Shown here piece after piece: positions 17,223-63,781 of a stretch of 64,000 bases of DNA (the first letter of the stretch is position 1; every line of letters starts with the position of its first letter). This DNA comes from Dissulfurirhabdus thermomarina (GTDB lineage Bacteria > Desulfobacterota > Dissulfuribacteria > Dissulfuribacterales > Dissulfurirhabdaceae), in contig NZ_JAATWC010000001.1 in the NCBI RefSeq assembly GCF_012979235.1, positions 315,001-379,000 of the forward strand, read 5' to 3'. Position numbers and translations under genes: made by a program. Under the pieces are notes generated by a model. It saw only the letters and a list, made by a program, of their open reading frames with translations, was not told where the DNA came from and did not search any database.

Positions 17223-17696
17223 GGCCGTGGAGATTTTGACGGCCCGGCGGCCGGGGCGTCATTTCCCCGGGGTGCGGCCGGCGCCGGCGGACCCGGCTCG
17301 GGCGGGCCGCGGCCGCCATCGAGGCGTGATGGCCGCGGCGAAAAGGTTTCAGGGCAGATGGCGCAACAGAGATCGGCAAATGCACGGCATGGGGGTGTCG
17401 AGGAATGAGGAATGCTTGGCGCCGCCGCAATGACGAGGGCATCCGAGGCAGCACAGCAGTCGGCGTATTTTGCGACGCCATCAAGTTTCCATCGCGGGAT
17501 GTCGATAATACCTCCATGAACCGCCGAAGGGCGGAAACCGCTGCGGCGAGGAGGTCTTCCGGGGATGCACGGTTCTTGCTTTCCGTCCAGGGGACAGGGT
17601 CACCCGGCCGGGACACACGTCCTCGACTCCGGGTGCAGGCAGGGTTTCGAATTCGGTGGCCGATTTCACAACGTCTTGGGGAAAGGGGGTGAACTC
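17223..17696 (+). other. Intergenic stretch between recD2 and the cytochrome gene
   Basis: About 470 bp between divergent genes. It holds one copy of the 127-bp dispersed repeat (17357-17482) and a TAATAC hexamer at 17506-17511 with no matching -35. Short frames here have no coding signature, and I see no structured RNA. The promoter for the 17697 gene is presumably within it but not identified. Confidence 0.6.
17357..17482 (+). repeat. Dispersed repeat copy A (about 127 bp, inverted ends)
   Basis: Copy A of a repeat also found at 19732-19858 (opposite strand) and 63502-63628. It starts GATGGC and ends TTTTGCGACGCCATC; shared internal blocks are CGCCGCAATGACGAGGGCAT and ATCCGAGGCA. The ends are roughly inverted (GATGGC...GCCATC) and the halves are partly self-complementary, as in a MITE-like or hairpin-forming element. 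It encodes nothing. Confidence 0.8.
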
Positions 17697-17999
17697 GTGA
17701 GGAAGAGCCTGATTCTCGCGGTGCTCGGGGTCATGCTGACCGCCGCCGGCGCCATGGCCGGCCCGGCGGATCTCTTCGTGAAGACCTGCGGGCAGTGCCA
17801 CGTCAAGGGAGGGCAGGCCCCGCCGGTGAACCCGGCGGACAAGGCTATGTCGGTCTGGGAGAAGTACTTCAGGCGAGGCCGGCACCCGGTGGATCTTTCC
17901 GGAAAGATCAGCTCGGACCAGCTCCAGATCGTCGTCGAGTATCTCAAGGACCACGCGGCCGACAGTGACCAGCCGCTGGCGGCGGTCATCCCGAAGTAG
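17697..17999 (+). CDS. Small periplasmic monoheme c-type cytochrome
   Basis: A 100-residue protein with a signal peptide (MRKSLILAVLGVMLTAAGAM, cleavage after AMA) and one heme site, CGQCH at about residue 36. No second CXXCH is present; the distal ligand may be a Met (AMSVW) but this is unsure. The GTG start at 17697 has AGGGGGTG upstream. It lies 48 nt before the DUF3373 porin gene and probably shares its transcript, so it may shuttle electrons to or near an outer-membrane complex. Ext-type clusters in Geobacter relatives also pair small cytochromes with such porins. Confidence 0.88.
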   Translation: MRKSLILAVLGVMLTAAGAMAGPADLFVKTCGQCHVKGGQAPPVNPADKAMSVWEKYFRRGRHPVDLSGKISSDQLQIVVEYLKDHAADSDQPLAAVIPK

Positions 18000-18047
18000 G
18001 GGCGGCCACGCGCGGCTACGCAGCAACGAAATGCGGGAGGATATGAA

Positions 18048-19646
18048 ATGAAGCGCGTTTTGACGGCACTCATGGTGCTTTCGCTGACGGCCTGGTCCGG
18101 CTCCGCCCTGGCGGCCCGGGACGACCAGGTGACGCTGTCGGCGAAGAAGTTGAAGGCCGTGCTCGGAAAGGTGCTGGAACTCCAGCGCCGGGTCAGCGAC
18201 CTCGAGCACGGCAAGGCCCGCGGCGGGCCCTCGGAGGTGGAAAAGTCCGCCGCCATTCCGGAATACGACAAGCTCACCCGCGACATCGAGGAGATCTACG
18301 ACACCCTCGACAAGGTGGAGACCCGCGCCCTGCAGGACAAGGTCAATTTCGGCGTGGAGGTTCGCTCCCGGGTGGACTTCTTCAAGTACGAGGACGTCTG
18401 GACCTACACGGAGCCTGCGGCGAACCCCAACGCCCTCTTCGGTCTCGACCCGGGTGACATGGTGGACCACGTCTACCCGAACACCATCAACAGCGCGCGG
18501 AAGGAGTGGACGGCGGACAACAAGTGGAGCACCCGGGTGCGCCTCAACATGGAGGCCCGGGCCGCCAACAGCCTCACCTTCCACGGTCGGCTCGCGGTTT
18601 ACAAGAACTGGGCCGAGAGCGGCGACATCCAGCGCAACGTCGACTTCTACCGGGCCCACCGGCCCGACGACACCACGGTGAAGCTCGACCGGGCCTACGT
18701 GGACTGGATCGTCCCCGTCCCCTTCCCCCTGGCCGTCACCTTCGGCCGGCATCCCTCCACCGAGGGGCCGCCCATGGAATACCGGGAAAACCTCCCCCGG
18801 CAGGCGACCTACCCCTCCCTGGTCTACGAGGGCGAGACCGACGGCATCGTGGTCACCCTGGGCCTCGAGCGCTACACCGGCCTCGTGAACTCGGGCCTCC
18901 GCCTGGCCTACGGCAAGGGCTACCAGCAGGACGAGTCGGGCTACTCCAACTTCACGGCCTTTGGGTCCCGGGCCAGCGGCATCAAGGACACCAACTTCTG
19001 GGCGGCCTTCTTCGAGACCGAGGTGCCCTACGTGCCCGAGAGCCTCCTGGTGTTGAGCTACATCCACGGAAACGACCTCATCGACAACCCGGCCGGGCCC
19101 CAGGCCAACCTGGGGAACATGGACGTCTACGGCGCCCACCTCCAGATGTCGAACTTCCTCGACACCGGGCTCGACCTCTTCGTCTCGTGGGGGCTCAACA
19201 ACGCCGATCCGAAGAAGCGGGCCGGCCAGTACGCCACGACACAGATGTACTTCATCAACCCGGCCACGGGGCTGCTCACCACCATGCCGGTGGGCCTCCT
19301 CGGCACCCAGGGGAGCAAGTGGGGCTGGGCCATCTACACCGGCTTCCGCTACACCGTCCCGGTGGACGCCCTCAAGCGGCCGAAGATCGGCTTCGAGTTC
19401 AACTACGGAAGCCCCCACTGGTTCTCCTTCACCTGGGGGAGCTCCGATCCCTACAACAAGCTCGCCACCCGGGGCAAGGCCTACGAGGTCTACTACATCC
19501 AGCCCTTCAACCGGTACCTCTTCATCCGGACGGGCTATACCAAGATCAACTACAACTGGAGCTTCAGCGGCTACCACCTCGGCGAGCCCTGGAAGATCGA
19601 CGAGAACCTGTCGAACTTCTACGCCCTCTTGGACGTCCGGTTCTAG
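18048..19646 (+). CDS. extI: DUF3373-type outer-membrane porin, ExtI-like
   Basis: A 532-residue outer-membrane beta-barrel: a signal peptide ending SALAARDD, a short coiled-coil (KLKAVLGKVLELQRRVSDLE, residues about 38-57), then a long run of alternating strands and a terminal Phe (LLDVRF). Conserved-looking pieces are DKVNFGVEVRSRVDFFKYED, FGRHPSTEGPPMEY and YGAHLQMSN. DUF3373 proteins are found with multiheme cytochromes in Desulfobacterota, and ExtI of Geobacter is a porin of this kind, tied to selenite/tellurite reduction. The symbol rests on this resemblance and on the neighbouring Rieske, cyt b and cytochrome genes. A strong terminator follows. Confidence 0.8.
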   Translation: MKRVLTALMVLSLTAWSGSALAARDDQVTLSAKKLKAVLGKVLELQRRVSDLEHGKARGGPSEVEKSAAIPEYDKLTRDIEEIYDTLDKVETRALQDKVNFGVEVRSRVDFFKYEDVWTYTEPAANPNALFGLDPGDMVDHVYPNTINSARKEWTADNKWSTRVRLNMEARAANSLTFHGRLAVYKNWAESGDIQRNVDFYRAHRPDDTTVKLDRAYVDWIVPVPFPLAVTFGRHPSTEGPPMEYRENLPRQATYPSLVYEGETDGIVVTLGLERYTGLVNSGLRLAYGKGYQQDESGYSNFTAFGSRASGIKDTNFWAAFFETEVPYVPESLLVLSYIHGNDLIDNPAGPQANLGNMDVYGAHLQMSNFLDTGLDLFVSWGLNNADPKKRAGQYATTQMYFINPATGLLTTMPVGLLGTQGSKWGWAIYTGFRYTVPVDALKRPKIGFEFNYGSPHWFSFTWGSSDPYNKLATRGKAYEVYYIQPFNRYLFIRTGYTKINYNWSFSGYHLGEPWKIDENLSNFYALLDVRF

Positions 19647-19670
19647 CGGACCGGATACCGCCGGAACGAA

Positions 19671-19696
19671 CCGGGCCCTTCGGGGCCCGGTTTTTT
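19671..19696 (+). terminator. Rho-independent terminator after the DUF3373 porin
   Basis: Perfect 8-bp stem CCGGGCCC (19671-19678) and GGGCCCGG (19683-19690) with a TTCG tetraloop, followed by six T (19691-19696). It lies 25 nt after the stop. Confidence 0.95.
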
Positions 19697-19731
19697 GATG
19701 GCGTCTCGGACATCGCCAAGCGCCGACACTT

Positions 19732-19858
19732 GATGGCCTCGCAAAAAGGCGCGGGCTGCGGCGTTGCTTCGGATGCCCCCGTCATTGCGGCGGGGCTCAA
19801 GTCGGCCTCATTCCTTGACGTCCCCGCGTCTTCATTCGGCGATTCTTGTCGCGCCGTC
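19732..19858 (-). repeat. Dispersed repeat copy B (about 127 bp, inverted ends)
   Basis: Read on the minus strand this copy aligns along its length with the copies at 17357 and 63502: AGAATCGCCGAATG, GTCAAGGAATGAGG, CCGCCGCAATGACG, GCATCCGAAGCAACGCCGCA and TTTTTGCGAGGCCATC occur in the same order and spacing. A further fragment, TTGATGGCGTCTCGG, lies just before it at 19695-19709. It fills the gap between the porin terminator and the end of the cytochrome gene. Confidence 0.82.
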
Positions 19859-20012
19859 CCCGCCGAGGACTTTTCGCGCGGAGTCATCCAGGATGCGCGG
19901 ACCCCGGACGCGCTCGTCACCGTTCATGGCCGGGCCGTTCCGGGCGGATGCCGGGGCAAGGGGAAGACGCCGGTCCCGGGATGGACGGCGCGGCCCCGGC
20001 GTCTTCGGGGGG

Positions 20013-21815
20013 TCAGGGGCGTGCCGCGGCGGGCGCGTGGCGGCAGGGGCGCGGCATGCGCCCGGGGCGCCAGGCCCGCATCACCGGGTCCCGGAGGTCC
20101 CGGTGGCAGGGAAGGCAGAGCCCCACGTCCAGGACGCGGCGGATCTCGTCTCGGCCCAGGGGGCGAAGGTCCGGCCGGGAGGTGTGAACCAGGGCGGTGC
20201 CGTTCGCGTCCACGAAGGCGTCCAGGGGGTGGTCGATCCCGAGGAGGCGGGGCCGGGCGGCCAGGGCGGGGGTGAAGGCCCAGCCCCCGGGCCCCCGGTG
20301 GAGGCTTCCCTCCCCGAGGCCCAGCGCCCGGGGGGTCTGGTGGCAGTCGGGGCAGCTCCGGCCCTTGGGCTGGGTGGTGTGGGGGTCCATCCACGAGACC
20401 GTGAGCCGCACGAAGTCCTTTTCCCATCGGCCCCTGTGATCCAACAGGGAGACAAAGTCCTGTCACCCGGGGACGAGGATCACCACCTCGTCGCCCTTGC
20501 GGCCGAGAGGCGGGCTCTCGTGGCGCATGAAGGAGCGGAATTCGCTCCACCGGCCCGGCGTCTCCCGGGCGGCCACCTTGTCCAGCATGGCCTGGCTCCG
20601 GTCCGCCCGGACGTGGCAGCCGTAGCACTGGGGGACCCAGGTGCTGTGGCAGGCCTGGCAGGAGAGGCGCCGGTGGAGGGGCCCCCGGCAGGCCGCGGGG
20701 TCGGGCGGGTCGAGGGGGTGGAGCTTCCGGTCCCGCCGGCCTTCCAGGAAGAAGGCCGTTCCCTTGGCCACCACGTCCAGCCGGGGCGGCGCCCTCTTGA
20801 CCTGCACCCCGGAAGGGGGGCCGAGGCCCCGCTTCCGGAGGGCGTAGGCCTCGGCCAGGGGGCGGAGGGCCTCGCCTCCGGCGTGGCAGGTGACGCAGCG
20901 GACCTCCAGCTGTTCCTCGAAGTGGACGTGGCGCGTGCCGTCGCCCATGGTTTCGCGCTGGGTGTGGCAGTCCACGCAGGCGAGGCCCTTACGGTGGTGG
21001 ACGTCGTCGGGCATGGACCGGACGTAGCGGCCGTCCTCGAGCTGGTGGGTCCCGAGGTCGCCCGCCTCGTACGGCGTGCCGTAACCCTCCGATTCCATGA
21101 GGCCCTGATACGAGAGGCCGATCCGGCCGCTCCGGTTGTGGCAGCGGACGCAGTTTTCGAGGGGGGCGTCCCGGGTGATCCGGGTATGGGCCCGCTCCCG
21201 GGGTGTGTCCGGTTCGGGCTTCTCCTGGTGGCACGCGGTGCAGCCGCCGCCCTTGGCGGCCAGGAAATCCGGCAGGGAGCCCTTTTCCATCCAGAGGTGG
21301 CAGCTGCCGCAGAGCTTCCGGAAGTAGTCCAGGGCCGGGGAGGTAAGGCCGGAGCGGGCCAGGCCGTGCACGGTGAGGTCCTCGGCCCCCGGTCCGGCGG
21401 ATTCACCCCAGTAGGTGCGAAGTGCGTCGATGATGCCCCGGTTGGTGGCCATGAGGGAGTTTTCGACCCACCGGAGCTGGTTCGGGTGGCAGCCCGCCTG
21501 GCCGCAGGTGCGGGGGCCGAGGCGGAGTTCGCCGGGGTTCTTCACCATACCCCGGTGGGCGCGGGTCTTGTCGCCGGCCAACGGGTCGCCCAGGTGGCAG
21601 GCGGCGCAGCCGAGGACGTCCCTGGCGTGGGCGCCCCCGGGATCCTGCCGGTGGCACCCGAGGCAGAGGTCCACCTGGCCAGCGGTGGTCCGGGTCACCG
21701 TGGGCGGCGGATGGTCCAGGGCCGGGACGCCTGCGGGGGGCGCCGCGGCGGCGGTCGAGAGCCATGCCAGCATCAGGGCGAGGCAGAGGAGGGCCGGGGG
21801 GCGGTTCGGGGGCAT
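20013..21815 (-). CDS. extKL: Multiheme c-type cytochrome with predicted selenocysteine (ExtKL-like)
   Basis: A periplasmic 12-heme cytochrome, 600 codons if the in-frame TGA at 20465-20463 is read as Sec451. The signal peptide ends TAAAAPP. Heme motifs before the TGA: CLGCH, CAACH, CGQAGCH (CX4CH), CGSCH, CTACH, CVRCH, CVDCH, CVTCH, CQACH and CYGCH. After it, in the same frame: CPDCH and CLPCH. The site reads ILVPG-U-QDFVS. A SECIS-like hairpin follows at normal distance, and no ribosome site or good start exists after the TGA, so two genes are unlikely. A nonsense mutation is the alternative. GAAGGAGGACGCC precedes the ATG. It is last in an operon with Rieske and cyt b genes, matching ExtKL-type modules; the name is from memory. 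Confidence 0.78.
20431..20465 (-). promoter_or_regulatory. Candidate SECIS element in the multiheme cytochrome gene
   Basis: After the TGA (20465-20463) come 12 nt, then a 7-bp stem TCCCTGT (20450-20444) with ACAGGGG (20437-20431, one U-G pair) closing a 6-nt loop TGGATC. Loop guanines 21-22 nt after the UGA fit the bacterial SECIS pattern (short upper stem, G near the loop start). It is less canonical than the fdhA element because it lacks GGUCU. Confidence 0.65.
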
Positions 21816-21826
21816 GGCGTCCTCCT

Positions 21827-22642
21827 TCACCGGAGCCAGGCCACGGCGGTGAGCACGAGGTAGCTGGCCCCCCAGAGGCCGAGCAGCCACCAGAGCGGCC
21901 GCCGTGCCCGGGCGAGCGGCATGAGCCCGAGGGCCGCCACGGGGACGGCGGGATAGACGACCCCGGCCGCCAGGGGCGGAAGATGCCGGAGCAGCTCCTG
22001 CACCGCCAGGAAGAACCAGGGCCCGTGGATGAGGTCCGGCGCCGCCCCGGGGGCGTCCATGGGGGCACGGACGAGAGCGGCCGCCGCCCCCGTGACCCCG
22101 AGGATCAGGGCGAGCTCCCTCCGCCCCACCAGGACCCGGCGCGTGTGGTACCAGGTGCCCAGGCCCCAGAGGAGGGCCGTCAGGAGGTAGTGGACCACGT
22201 AGACCCGGTTCAGCCCCTCCAGGGACACGGCGAAGAGGAGCCGGTCCAGGGCCGGCCCCGCCACGGGCACGGCGAGGGCCAGGTGTTCGGCCACGGCCCC
22301 GGCGGCGAGCCCCGTGGCGTCGGCCCGGAGGACGTAGCCGGTAAACAGCGCGAGAACTCCCATGGGCAGCAGCGCGACGAGCAGCCACCATCGCCCGTTG
22401 TGCTGGCGGTCCAGGGTGGCCTCGTCCAGCATCTGCCAGGTGTGGACGAGGAGGAGCAGCACGAAGGCCTGGCTCGAGTAGAAGTGGAGGGCGCGCCAGA
22501 ACCCGCCGAAGGGCAGGAGGGCGTCGATGGCCACGGCGGAGCCGAAGGCATCCGCCGCCTCGTAGTGGTAGGCCACCACGAAGCCCGAGCCGGCCGAGAC
22601 CAGGAGGGCCGCGGTGGCCAGCTCCCCCCACCGCCGGCTCAT
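21827..22642 (-). CDS. extP: b-type cytochrome membrane subunit (ExtP-like)
   Basis: A 271-residue integral membrane protein with about seven hydrophobic segments. Its N-terminal half resembles cytochrome b6: paired histidines lie in LHFYSSQAFVLLLLVHTW and in RVYVVHYLLTALLW...TWYH, placing two hemes b across the membrane. The ATG overlaps the Rieske stop (ATGA) and the gene is followed 11 nt later by the multiheme cytochrome. A Rieske-cyt b-cytochrome c arrangement suggests quinol oxidation with electrons delivered to the periplasmic cytochrome. The C-terminal segments may correspond to a subunit IV-like part. Confidence 0.82.
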   Translation of the reverse strand: MSRRWGELATAALLVSAGSGFVVAYHYEAADAFGSAVAIDALLPFGGFWRALHFYSSQAFVLLLLVHTWQMLDEATLDRQHNGRWWLLVALLPMGVLALFTGYVLRADATGLAAGAVAEHLALAVPVAGPALDRLLFAVSLEGLNRVYVVHYLLTALLWGLGTWYHTRRVLVGRRELALILGVTGAAAALVRAPMDAPGAAPDLIHGPWFFLAVQELLRHLPPLAAGVVYPAVPVAALGLMPLARARRPLWWLLGLWGASYLVLTAVAWLR

Positions 22643-23040
22643 CCGAGCCCCCTGGGGATCACCACCGCGTAGCCGCCGTCCTCGAGGCGCCGGACCCCGA
22701 GCCGGGGCAGGTCCTTCTTGGCCGGCCCCGAGACGTAGCGGCCGTCCCAGGTGAACCGGCTCTGGTGGCAGGGGCAGATGAAGCCGCGCTCCACCGGGTG
22801 GTAGGTGATCCGGCAGCCGAGGTGGGGGCAGCGGCGCGAGACGGCCATCGGCCCGGCCTCGGTCTCGAAGAGGCAGAAGTCGGGCTCGAGGAGGTACTGC
22901 CCGGGCTTGAGCTCCTTCCGGATGCGCACCGTCCGCGGCGGGCGGACCCGGTCGGTGGTGACGAAGGCGGCGAAGGGGTAGAGCCCGAGGACGCCCAGGG
23001 CCCACCCCGCCGCCCGCTTCAGCCAGTCGCGGCGGGTCAC
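22639..23040 (-). CDS. extO: Rieske [2Fe-2S] protein (ExtO-like)
   Basis: About 133 residues: an N-terminal TRRDWLKRAAGWALG segment that looks like a twin-arginine signal/anchor, then a Rieske domain with both cluster motifs, CPHLGC and CPCHQSRF, and the usual FTWDGRYVSGPA and DLPRL loop. It would oxidise quinol together with the cyt b encoded next. I prefer the GTG at 23040, which overlaps the upstream stop (GTGA) like the other junctions here; an ATG at 23055 adds five residues. Neither has a clear ribosome site. Confidence 0.85.
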   Translation of the reverse strand: MTRRDWLKRAAGWALGVLGLYPFAAFVTTDRVRPPRTVRIRKELKPGQYLLEPDFCLFETEAGPMAVSRRCPHLGCRITYHPVERGFICPCHQSRFTWDGRYVSGPAKKDLPRLGVRRLEDGGYAVVIPRGLG

Positions 23041-23258
23041 TTGCGAAGGATCCATAGGAGGAGGGTGAGGAGGGCGCTCAGGAGGAGCGAGGTGGCCAGC
23101 GGGAAGTAGAAGGTGAAATTTCCTTTCCGGATGAGGATGTCCCCGGGCAGGCGGCCGATGAAGGAAAGACGCGAGCCGGCCATGAGGAGGAGCCCCACCA
23201 CCGCCACGGCCGCGCCGAAGAAGAGGAGCAGCCGCCCGATCTCGCCCAGGGGGTTCAC
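23037..23258 (-). CDS. DUF2905 family small membrane protein
   Basis: A 73-residue protein with two hydrophobic segments flanking SRLSFIGRLPGDILIRKGNFTFYFP, the hallmark of DUF2905, followed by LLLSALLTLLLWIL. Function unknown. The GTG start overlaps the queH stop (GTGA) and has GGGAGGG upstream; its own stop overlaps the Rieske start. It is often found as an orphan housekeeping gene, so its place between queH and the redox genes may be incidental. Confidence 0.85.
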   Translation of the reverse strand: MNPLGEIGRLLLFFGAAVAVVGLLLMAGSRLSFIGRLPGDILIRKGNFTFYFPLATSLLLSALLTLLLWILRK

Positions 23259-23845
23259 GCCGCCCTCCCCGCGGCCGGCGCCGCCAGCCGCCGGCGGAGC
23301 CGCTCGGCCCGGGCCGCGTAGCGCTCGCCCTCGCTGAAGAGGCAGCCGCAGTAGGGCTGCCGGTAGATGCCGAGGGCCCTCGCGGCCTCGATGCCCGCGG
23401 CCCAGCCCTCGCGGAAGTCCTCGTAGTGAAAGGCGACCCCCGCCTCTCGGGCCGCCGCCTCGCCCGCGGCCCGGATCTCGGCGTGCCGCTGGTAACGGCT
23501 GTAGAGCAGGGTGGTGCTGAAGGCCGGGAACCCGTGTGCCTTCGCCGCCGCGGCCGCGGCGGAAAGCCGCAGCCGGTAGCAGGCCGGGCACCGCCGGCCG
23601 GGATCGGTCTCCGGCCCCACGGCCTCGAACCACCGGTGCAGGTCGTAGCCCTCCGGAGCCCAGAGGACCGGGAGCCCGAGCCGGTCCGCCACGGTCTCCA
23701 TGGCCTCCACCCGGCGCTCGTACTCGCGGAAGGGGTGGACGTTGGGGTTGAAGAAGTGCCCCGTCACCTCGAAACCCTTGGCCCGTAGGCGTTCCAGCGG
23801 GTAGAGTGTGCAAGGCCCGCAGCACGTGTGAAGGAGGAGCCGCAT
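23255..23845 (-). CDS. queH: Epoxyqueuosine reductase QueH
   Basis: A 196-residue Fe-S enzyme for the last step of queuosine tRNA modification, replacing QueG. The start MRLLLHTCCGPC carries the first cysteine pair; DPGRRCPACYRLRL and YCGCLFSEGERY carry the others. The ATG at 23845 abuts the divergent mutY ATG (23844) within one CATG. No ribosome site is present, but a strong promoter ends 7 nt before the ATG, so the mRNA is probably leaderless. It heads the operon leading into the DUF2905, Rieske, cyt b and cytochrome genes. Confidence 0.92.
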   Translation of the reverse strand: MRLLLHTCCGPCTLYPLERLRAKGFEVTGHFFNPNVHPFREYERRVEAMETVADRLGLPVLWAPEGYDLHRWFEAVGPETDPGRRCPACYRLRLSAAAAAAKAHGFPAFSTTLLYSRYQRHAEIRAAGEAAAREAGVAFHYEDFREGWAAGIEAARALGIYRQPYCGCLFSEGERYAARAERLRRRLAAPAAGRAA

Positions 23846-63251: not shown

Positions 63252-63501
63252 GATGGACTCTCAAAGGGCATCAGGGGACGGCCCAGCCAGGTGCGTTTCG
63301 TCGGGGCCCCGGGCCGGCGTCTTTTCCGGTCCTCCGGCACTTGCACGGGGTGGCCCGAGGGTGCGCGAAGCACCGCCCCGATCGACGCATCTTTGCAGGG
63401 GCATCACTTCTTGCCGGGTTCGTAACAAGGCTTCGGAGCGGATGGTAGTGGATGATATTACTTAAGAGCGCATGATGTAAGACGAAAAGGGGCTCTGGGT
63501 G

Positions 63502-63628
63502 GATGGCTCGGCAAAAATCGCCAAATGCACGGCGCGAGGATGTCGAGGGACGAGGCGTACCGAGCTCCGCCGCACTGACGAGAATATCCGAAGCAACGCT
63601 GCAGCCTGTGATTTTTTGCGACGCCATC
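63502..63628 (+). repeat. Dispersed repeat copy C (about 127 bp, inverted ends)
   Basis: Same orientation as the 17357 copy. GATGGC-TCGGCAAAAATC at the start is nearly the reverse complement of GATTTTTTGCGACGCCATC at the end, giving the clearest terminal inverted repeats of the three copies. Shared internal blocks: GCCAAATGCACGGC, TCCGAAGCAACGC. Confidence 0.85.
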
Positions 63629-63781
63629 AGACATTGCCCAGCAAAAGAAGCGAGCTTCAGAAGGAGTCCCGGGCTCCTTGACGCTTCGTGTGGATTTGGC
63701 CTTTCAGGGTCCAGACGTGCACGGAGGGGAAAGATTCGGTGCCTCGGTGGAAGCGCGGTGCCGCCGTCGCCTGCGGCAGGC

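Follow-up and report, generated by a model that had tools for sequence, protein, structure and literature searches.

A candidate dodecaheme selenocytochrome of the ExtM superfamily and its Rieske/cytochrome b partners in Dissulfurirhabdus thermomarina

A 64,000-nucleotide stretch of the Dissulfurirhabdus thermomarina genome (contig NZ_JAATWC010000001.1, positions 315,001 to 379,000; hereafter the window) carries two convergent units of electron transfer genes. A minus-strand operon encodes a Rieske protein, a b-type cytochrome, and a multiheme cytochrome with an in-frame TGA codon, and a plus-strand pair encodes a small cytochrome c and a DUF3373 porin. We regard it as reasonably probable that the operon specifies a bc-type complex and a periplasmic selenocytochrome that may exchange electrons with a sulfur or selenium compound, and that the cytochrome c/porin pair is an independent cassette. 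The original prediction had placed all five proteins in one complete path from quinol to the outer membrane. Profile searches and open reading frame positions agree with the five families and, roughly, with the coordinates that it gave. The chain from quinol through the Rieske protein and cytochrome b to the periplasmic multiheme cytochrome is retained here; the inclusion of the porin and the small cytochrome in the same pathway is not.

The genome (G000; 2.46 Mb in 34 contigs, of which C1, C3, and C5 are cited below) was compared within a set of 99 genomes, 46 from the order Dissulfuribacterales, its own included, and 53 from outside the order. It is the sole member of its family among the genomes compared, and its order-level relatives include metagenome-assembled genomes (MAGs) of Dissulfuribacterales. 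The family, Dissulfurirhabdaceae, has been proposed within this order (PMC7478628).

Selenocysteine in the multiheme cytochrome

The multiheme cytochrome (20013-21815, minus strand) is a protein of 600 amino acids with a signal peptide. Its in-frame TGA (20465-20463, minus strand) is predicted to be a real selenocysteine (Sec) codon, giving Sec451 in the motif VPG-U-QD. The gene is carried by 40 of the 46 order genomes, and nearly all full-length copies contain a single in-frame TGA. Position 451 of the alignment is U or C and no other residue. The surrounding PG[U/C]Q motif is invariant; Dissulfuribacterales and Thermodesulfobacteria share VPG-U-QD as the conserved form, and the cysteine form reads TPGCQD in Desulfobulbales, cable bacteria included. 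Cys occupies the position in five surveyed genomes (G009, G014, G096, G072, and G060), and two of the Cys carriers are order members. The same division is seen in a named collection, where 80 of the 385 relatives found were kept: U in Dissulfuribacterales-type MAGs and Thermodesulfobacteria, and C in Desulfobulbales (Desulfocapsa, Desulfurivibrio, Electrothrix, and Electronema). A protein tree of 84 rows, 38 with Sec and 46 with Cys, needs three Sec/Cys changes and can be read as one Sec clade in which Cys later returned twice, although mixed internal support and several long branches caution against reading more from it.

The TGA is followed by an apical stem-loop, and the two together form a stretch that resembles a selenocysteine insertion sequence (SECIS; 20424-20465, minus strand). 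A hairpin is common to 20 Sec genes; its stem starts at nucleotide 17, numbering from the TGA. In the stem 17-22/28-33, 95% of cells are paired and 10 changes are double-sided; none of 500 shuffles reached this covariation, and all slid controls were much lower. Most relatives have the stem-loop CCTTTC-TGGAT-GAAAGG. The window's own, CCCTGT-TGGATC-ACAGGG, folds one base out of the shared register and was left out of the 20-gene alignment. The best stems of the Sec forms measure 7.6 bp against 5.8 in synonymous shuffles; those of the Cys forms measure 4.3 against 4.1, the hairpin signal being lost. Rfam at gathering thresholds gave no match within the window, and the case for a SECIS is thus built on comparative folding. 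The genome also encodes tRNA-Sec (C1:540897-540990, 75 bits) and SelB (C5:14919-16814, 378 bits).

A TGA that is a true stop or a pseudogene lesion, with the C-terminal part left untranslated, would account for the split of the gene in a standard-code listing of open reading frames. We consider this scarcely credible. The codon lies in the same place in most of about 40 order species and is replaced by Cys in others, the frame downstream and its two heme sites are conserved, and a covarying hairpin accompanies the selenocysteine machinery. The conserved U/C position and the hairpin covariation rule out a frameshift as well. The Sec residue that the original prediction had read from this gene thus appears genuine.

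Twelve heme sites, 11 of them CXXCH and one CX4CH (C104/C109/H110), are all conserved. Among the NCBIfam models, ExtM (NF040943) matches residues 44-315 with 268 bits, and ExtN/ExtO match residues 382-497 with 52 bits. By these profile matches, the selenocytochrome is assigned to the ExtM superfamily. Its identification as ExtKL was rejected, since the ExtKL model NF040886 does not match it and its motif is VPGUQD, not GHxIPDGUPTPNR. A PDB profile search returned weak matches only, to a cytochrome c-552 and a split-Soret cytochrome (E 0.0035-0.0065). In the Geobacter papers, ExtKL is the Sec protein and ExtM is a 12-heme cytochrome (PMC5877670, PMC6148476), and ExtM has been reported in cable bacteria (PMC11976967). 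The multiheme cytochromes named in a 2026 inventory of prokaryotic selenoproteins are ExtKL and the octaheme tetrathionate-reductase type only; the CXXCH-containing GSU2204 barrel is also named, and an ExtM-type selenocytochrome is not among the entries (PMC13188914). Searches of the literature that paired selenocysteine cytochromes with Geobacter, Rieske, or disproportionation turned up no account of this protein, and a 2026 paper on disproportionation does not mention cytochromes. The ExtM-type dodecaheme cytochrome, with its Sec/Cys pair, would add a selenoprotein family to that inventory.

Other multiheme cytochromes are encoded on contig C1. A 535-amino-acid protein with nine CXXCH motifs (C1:239926-241533, plus strand; L099 5927-7534) is related to ExtN/ExtO/ExtM at about 70 bits and is found in many relatives. 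A 520-amino-acid eight-heme cytochrome (C1:642672-644234, plus strand; L217 5673-7235) is weakly like hydrazine dehydrogenase, at 64 bits.

Rieske and cytochrome b partners and the proposed electron path

The cytochrome b gene (21827-22642, minus strand; PF00033, 4.6e-14) encodes an ExtP/b6-like diheme protein of 271 amino acids with a short C-terminal extension. The Rieske [2Fe-2S] protein (22639-23055, minus strand; PF00355, 1.9e-10) has an N-terminal membrane anchor or twin-arginine-like signal (RRDWLKRAAG). Its 2Cys-2His ligands (C76, H78, C94, and H97) are conserved in 18 aligned sequences. The two bis-His heme b pairs of cytochrome b (H53/H67 and H151/H166) are conserved too. All aligned cytochrome b sequences have a Qo-type motif, GPWFF, at the place where bc/b6f proteins carry PEWY. 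Cytochrome b reaches 57 bits with the ExtP model NF040969 (cut-off 290), and the Rieske protein matches general Rieske models only. Conservation of the TGA, its flanking motif, the heme sites, the Rieske ligands, and the cytochrome b histidines across dozens of species makes the locus more than a chance assembly.

Distribution and gene order tie the three proteins together. Cytochrome b is present in 43 of the 46 order genomes. Outside the order, strong homologues of cytochrome b and of the selenocytochrome occur in the same two of 53 genomes (p=7e-4, uncorrected for relatedness). The Rieske, cytochrome b, and selenocytochrome genes form one operon in Thermodesulfobacteria, including Thermosulfurimonas dismutans, and in G073. 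In the genome studied here and in G006, the selenocytochrome gene closes an operon headed by queH. From these sequence comparisons, the Rieske protein, cytochrome b, and the selenocytochrome, which are spread over nearly identical sets of genomes, appear to be one system.

The operon runs queH-DUF2905-Rieske-cytochrome b-multiheme cytochrome. QueH (epoxyqueuosine reductase; 23255-23845, minus strand; PF02677, 4.7e-60) is encoded by its first gene, and a small DUF2905 membrane protein by the second (23037-23258, minus strand, GTG start at 23258; PF11146, 3.5e-23), whose position beside the Rieske gene is conserved. Adjacent genes share a few bases, with 19 nt in common between DUF2905 and Rieske and 4 nt between Rieske and cytochrome b, and an 11-nt gap separates cytochrome b from the multiheme gene. 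The arrangement headed by queH had been called unusual; it is in fact common in the order, queH-DUF2905-Rieske-cytochrome b being found in most relatives examined, and the queH-first order is a habit of the lineage. QueH is probably metabolically unrelated to the rest of the operon. The reason why a queuosine gene is tied to a respiratory complex at so many loci (L203, L206-L208, L211, L213, L219, and L221) is not obvious.

The conserved Rieske and heme b ligands, the GPWFF motif, and the operon and co-occurrence pattern make a quinol-oxidizing complex that feeds the selenocytochrome the best reading. Cytochrome b and the Rieske protein would oxidize a quinol, of the menaquinol type, at the membrane, and the electron would pass from the Rieske cluster to the periplasmic twelve-heme cytochrome. 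Sec451, or Cys in other lineages, may lie beside the heme chain as a redox-active residue of an active site and not as wiring. The heme chain would end at this residue, where the quinone pool could exchange electrons with a periplasmic sulfur (or selenium) oxyanion or polysulfide. The electrons might also run in the reverse direction. The sulfur proposal comes from the host lineages, among them Thermosulfurimonas, Dissulfuribacterales, Desulfocapsa, and cable bacteria, and not from biochemistry; the Cys form is also found in Desulfobulbales other than Desulfocapsa and cable bacteria.

Several observations weigh against a quinol-linked selenocytochrome with an active-site Sec. Within the order, both the cytochrome b and selenocytochrome genes are near universal, and a test of their co-occurrence is statistically powerless at this level (p=1.0). 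The selenocytochrome gene is located away from Rieske/cytochrome b in most Dissulfuribacterales, so that a stable complex is putative; incomplete MAGs can mask linkage, and in fragmented ones the unlinked genes may be under-counted. The predicted structure of the selenocytochrome is weak at the Sec region, with a predicted local distance difference test score (pLDDT) below 50 at residues 449-472, and the position of Sec near a heme lacks model support. Foldseek with this weak model found no fold match, and no expression or biochemical work on this protein was found in the literature.

The main competitor is a reading in which the selenocytochrome is a mere periplasmic wire, accepting electrons from Rieske/cytochrome b and passing them to other cytochromes, among them those of the likely GSU2203/GSU2204 conduit on another contig, while Sec or Cys serves as a heme ligand or a structural thiol. 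The twelve conserved heme sites, a decaheme/barrel conduit elsewhere in the genome (described below), the Cys form in cable bacteria, and the extracellular electron transfer that the published genome paper proposed for Dissulfurirhabdus (PMC7478628) all fit such a role. The invariant PGUQ motif around Sec and the rarity of Sec-to-Cys change nevertheless suggest chemistry at the residue, and Sec would be costly for a mere ligand. We therefore hold the wire to be unlikely, though worth keeping in view. A bolder form of the selenoenzyme reading goes further still and is more doubtful: an undescribed quinol-linked twelve-heme selenoenzyme whose catalytic PGUQ Sec would serve periplasmic sulfur-compound redox reactions (e.g., with thiosulfate, polysulfide, or sulfite) in Dissulfuribacterales and Thermodesulfobacteria, with a Cys version in Desulfobulbales and cable bacteria. 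The mechanism and the electron carriers of sulfur disproportionators are poorly known. Known disproportionators are among the lineages in which this selenocytochrome family is tied to a Rieske/cytochrome b complex, and Sec451 offers a concrete residue for study.

The porin cassette and a candidate conduit elsewhere in the genome

The small cytochrome (17697-17999, plus strand, GTG start at 17697) is a class-I cytochrome c with one heme, matching Cytochrome_CBB3 (PF13442) at 26.6 bits (7.6e-06), just below the 27-bit cut-off. The DUF3373 porin that follows (18048-19646, plus strand; PF11853, 2e-64) has an N-terminal coiled coil. Its AlphaFold model has about 17 strands at a mean pLDDT of 61, and Foldseek matches it to OmpF/OmpC/AlgE. 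The small cytochrome stands beside the porin in relatives wherever the contig reaches far enough. A methyl-accepting chemotaxis protein is usually encoded downstream of the pair in relatives (L089, L090, L091, L092, L093, L095, and L096) and is absent downstream of the pair in the window. Between the converging units lie an intrinsic terminator 3' of the porin gene (19671-19696, plus strand; CCGGGCCC-TTCG-GGGCCCGG-TTTTTT), seen by eye in the sequence and not listed by an automatic terminator scan, and a copy of a dispersed repeat of about 150 bp (19731-19881, plus strand). The repeat has about 42 matches genome-wide, itself included, at 72-87% identity, and a further copy is present in the window at 63483-63629 (minus strand). 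Together with an inverted copy at 17333-17489 (minus strand), the copy at 19731-19881 brackets the cytochrome c/porin cassette, an arrangement that may bear on its insertion.

The model of a single five-protein path, from quinol through Rieske/cytochrome b, the selenocytochrome, and the small cytochrome to a DUF3373-porin conduit, is tempting. The two units adjoin in the genome studied here and lie about 6 kb apart in G035 (apparently also in G025), where a histidine kinase gene and one for a GGDEF protein separate them, and both the selenocytochrome and cytochrome b are related to Geobacter Ext proteins. All 11 order genomes with a close porin homologue also hold the selenocytochrome. The original prediction had named a lack of co-occurrence between the units in related genomes as grounds for refuting the path, and the porin fails to follow the operon: with selenocytochrome in 40 and cytochrome b in 43 of the 46 genomes, those 11 carriers show no significant co-occurrence of porin and selenocytochrome (p=0.31), and in nearly all of them the porin unit is located elsewhere in the genome, generally on another contig. 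On distribution and linkage, a steady partnership of the porin and the small cytochrome with the selenocytochrome was rejected. The porin was likewise rejected as ExtI, as it neither aligns with the ExtI of G072 nor matches the ExtI model. The features of an Mtr/Pcc-type conduit are lacking at the locus, where the barrel is modelled as OmpF/AlgE-like, the partner is a monoheme cytochrome, which cannot by itself span a membrane, and no surface cytochrome was found. These results give no support to the wire proposed to cross the outer membrane, and we judge the five-protein path very improbable. From the comparative data, the cytochrome c and porin would be an independent cassette that lies opposite the operon by chance, with a probable role in taking up or sensing a small solute.

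The genome encodes another DUF3373 porin, a divergent one, at C3:137566-139095 (plus strand; L098 6567-8096), so that DUF3373 alone is no marker of a conduit. Most members of the order encode porins like it, flanked by a different, conserved set of genes.

Ext and conduit components were also sought beyond the window. A true ExtI homologue (C5:169399-170796, plus strand; C5:169447; L239 9400-10797) scores 287 bits against a cut-off of 150; it has no cytochrome neighbours and is unlinked to the Rieske/selenocytochrome locus. The absence of the rhodanese ExtH, noted in the original prediction, holds for the locus and for the whole genome, where the best score is 42.6 bits against a cut-off of 200. 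The best genome-wide match to ExtKL, at 41 bits (cut-off 250), lacks a TGA. The search for further cytochromes was fruitful on contig C3, where a GSU2203-family decaheme cytochrome (472 bits) adjoins a GSU2204-family MtrB/PioB-type barrel (574 bits; C3:176219-179585, minus strand; L253 8220-11586). The barrel gene carries its own in-frame TGA (CIAVYDGUANL). This pair is likely the true porin-cytochrome conduit across the outer membrane and the barrel a second selenoprotein, and its place in the genome, like that of ExtI, argues further against the five-protein path.

Comparison with known systems

The likeness to Geobacter Ext modules is partial. The selenocytochrome shares with ExtM and ExtN of the extHIJKLMNOPQS cluster, which is linked to selenite/tellurite reduction, the twelve hemes, an alignable N-terminal half, a C-terminal part matching the ExtN/ExtO models, and Rieske and cytochrome b genes nearby (PMC5877670). 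Its score, however, falls well short of the ExtM equivalog cut-off (800 bits), and it has Sec at the position that is Cys in the ExtM of G072 and G060. Unlike the Geobacter cluster, this locus has no ExtH, ExtI, ExtJ, ExtKL, or ExtS. ExtKL is also a selenocysteine-containing multiheme c-type cytochrome from a related respiratory setting, but it has five hemes and a different Sec motif.

Clear Cys counterparts are the ExtM homologues of cable bacteria and other Desulfobulbales, which are 44-50% identical to the selenocytochrome and group beside the Sec clade; an adjacent Rieske/cytochrome b pair of this type was not found for them. The GSU2203/GSU2204 pair shares with the locus its genome and the presence of a selenoprotein, and differs from it in its barrel and cytochrome families and in its unlinked position. 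With bc1/b6f and other Rieske/cytochrome b complexes, the operon has in common the Rieske ligands, the two bis-His heme b sites, and a Qo-type aromatic motif. It departs from bc1/b6f in its short cytochrome b, in GPWFF in place of PEWY, and in the electron partner encoded with it, which is the dodecaheme selenocytochrome and not cytochrome c1/f.

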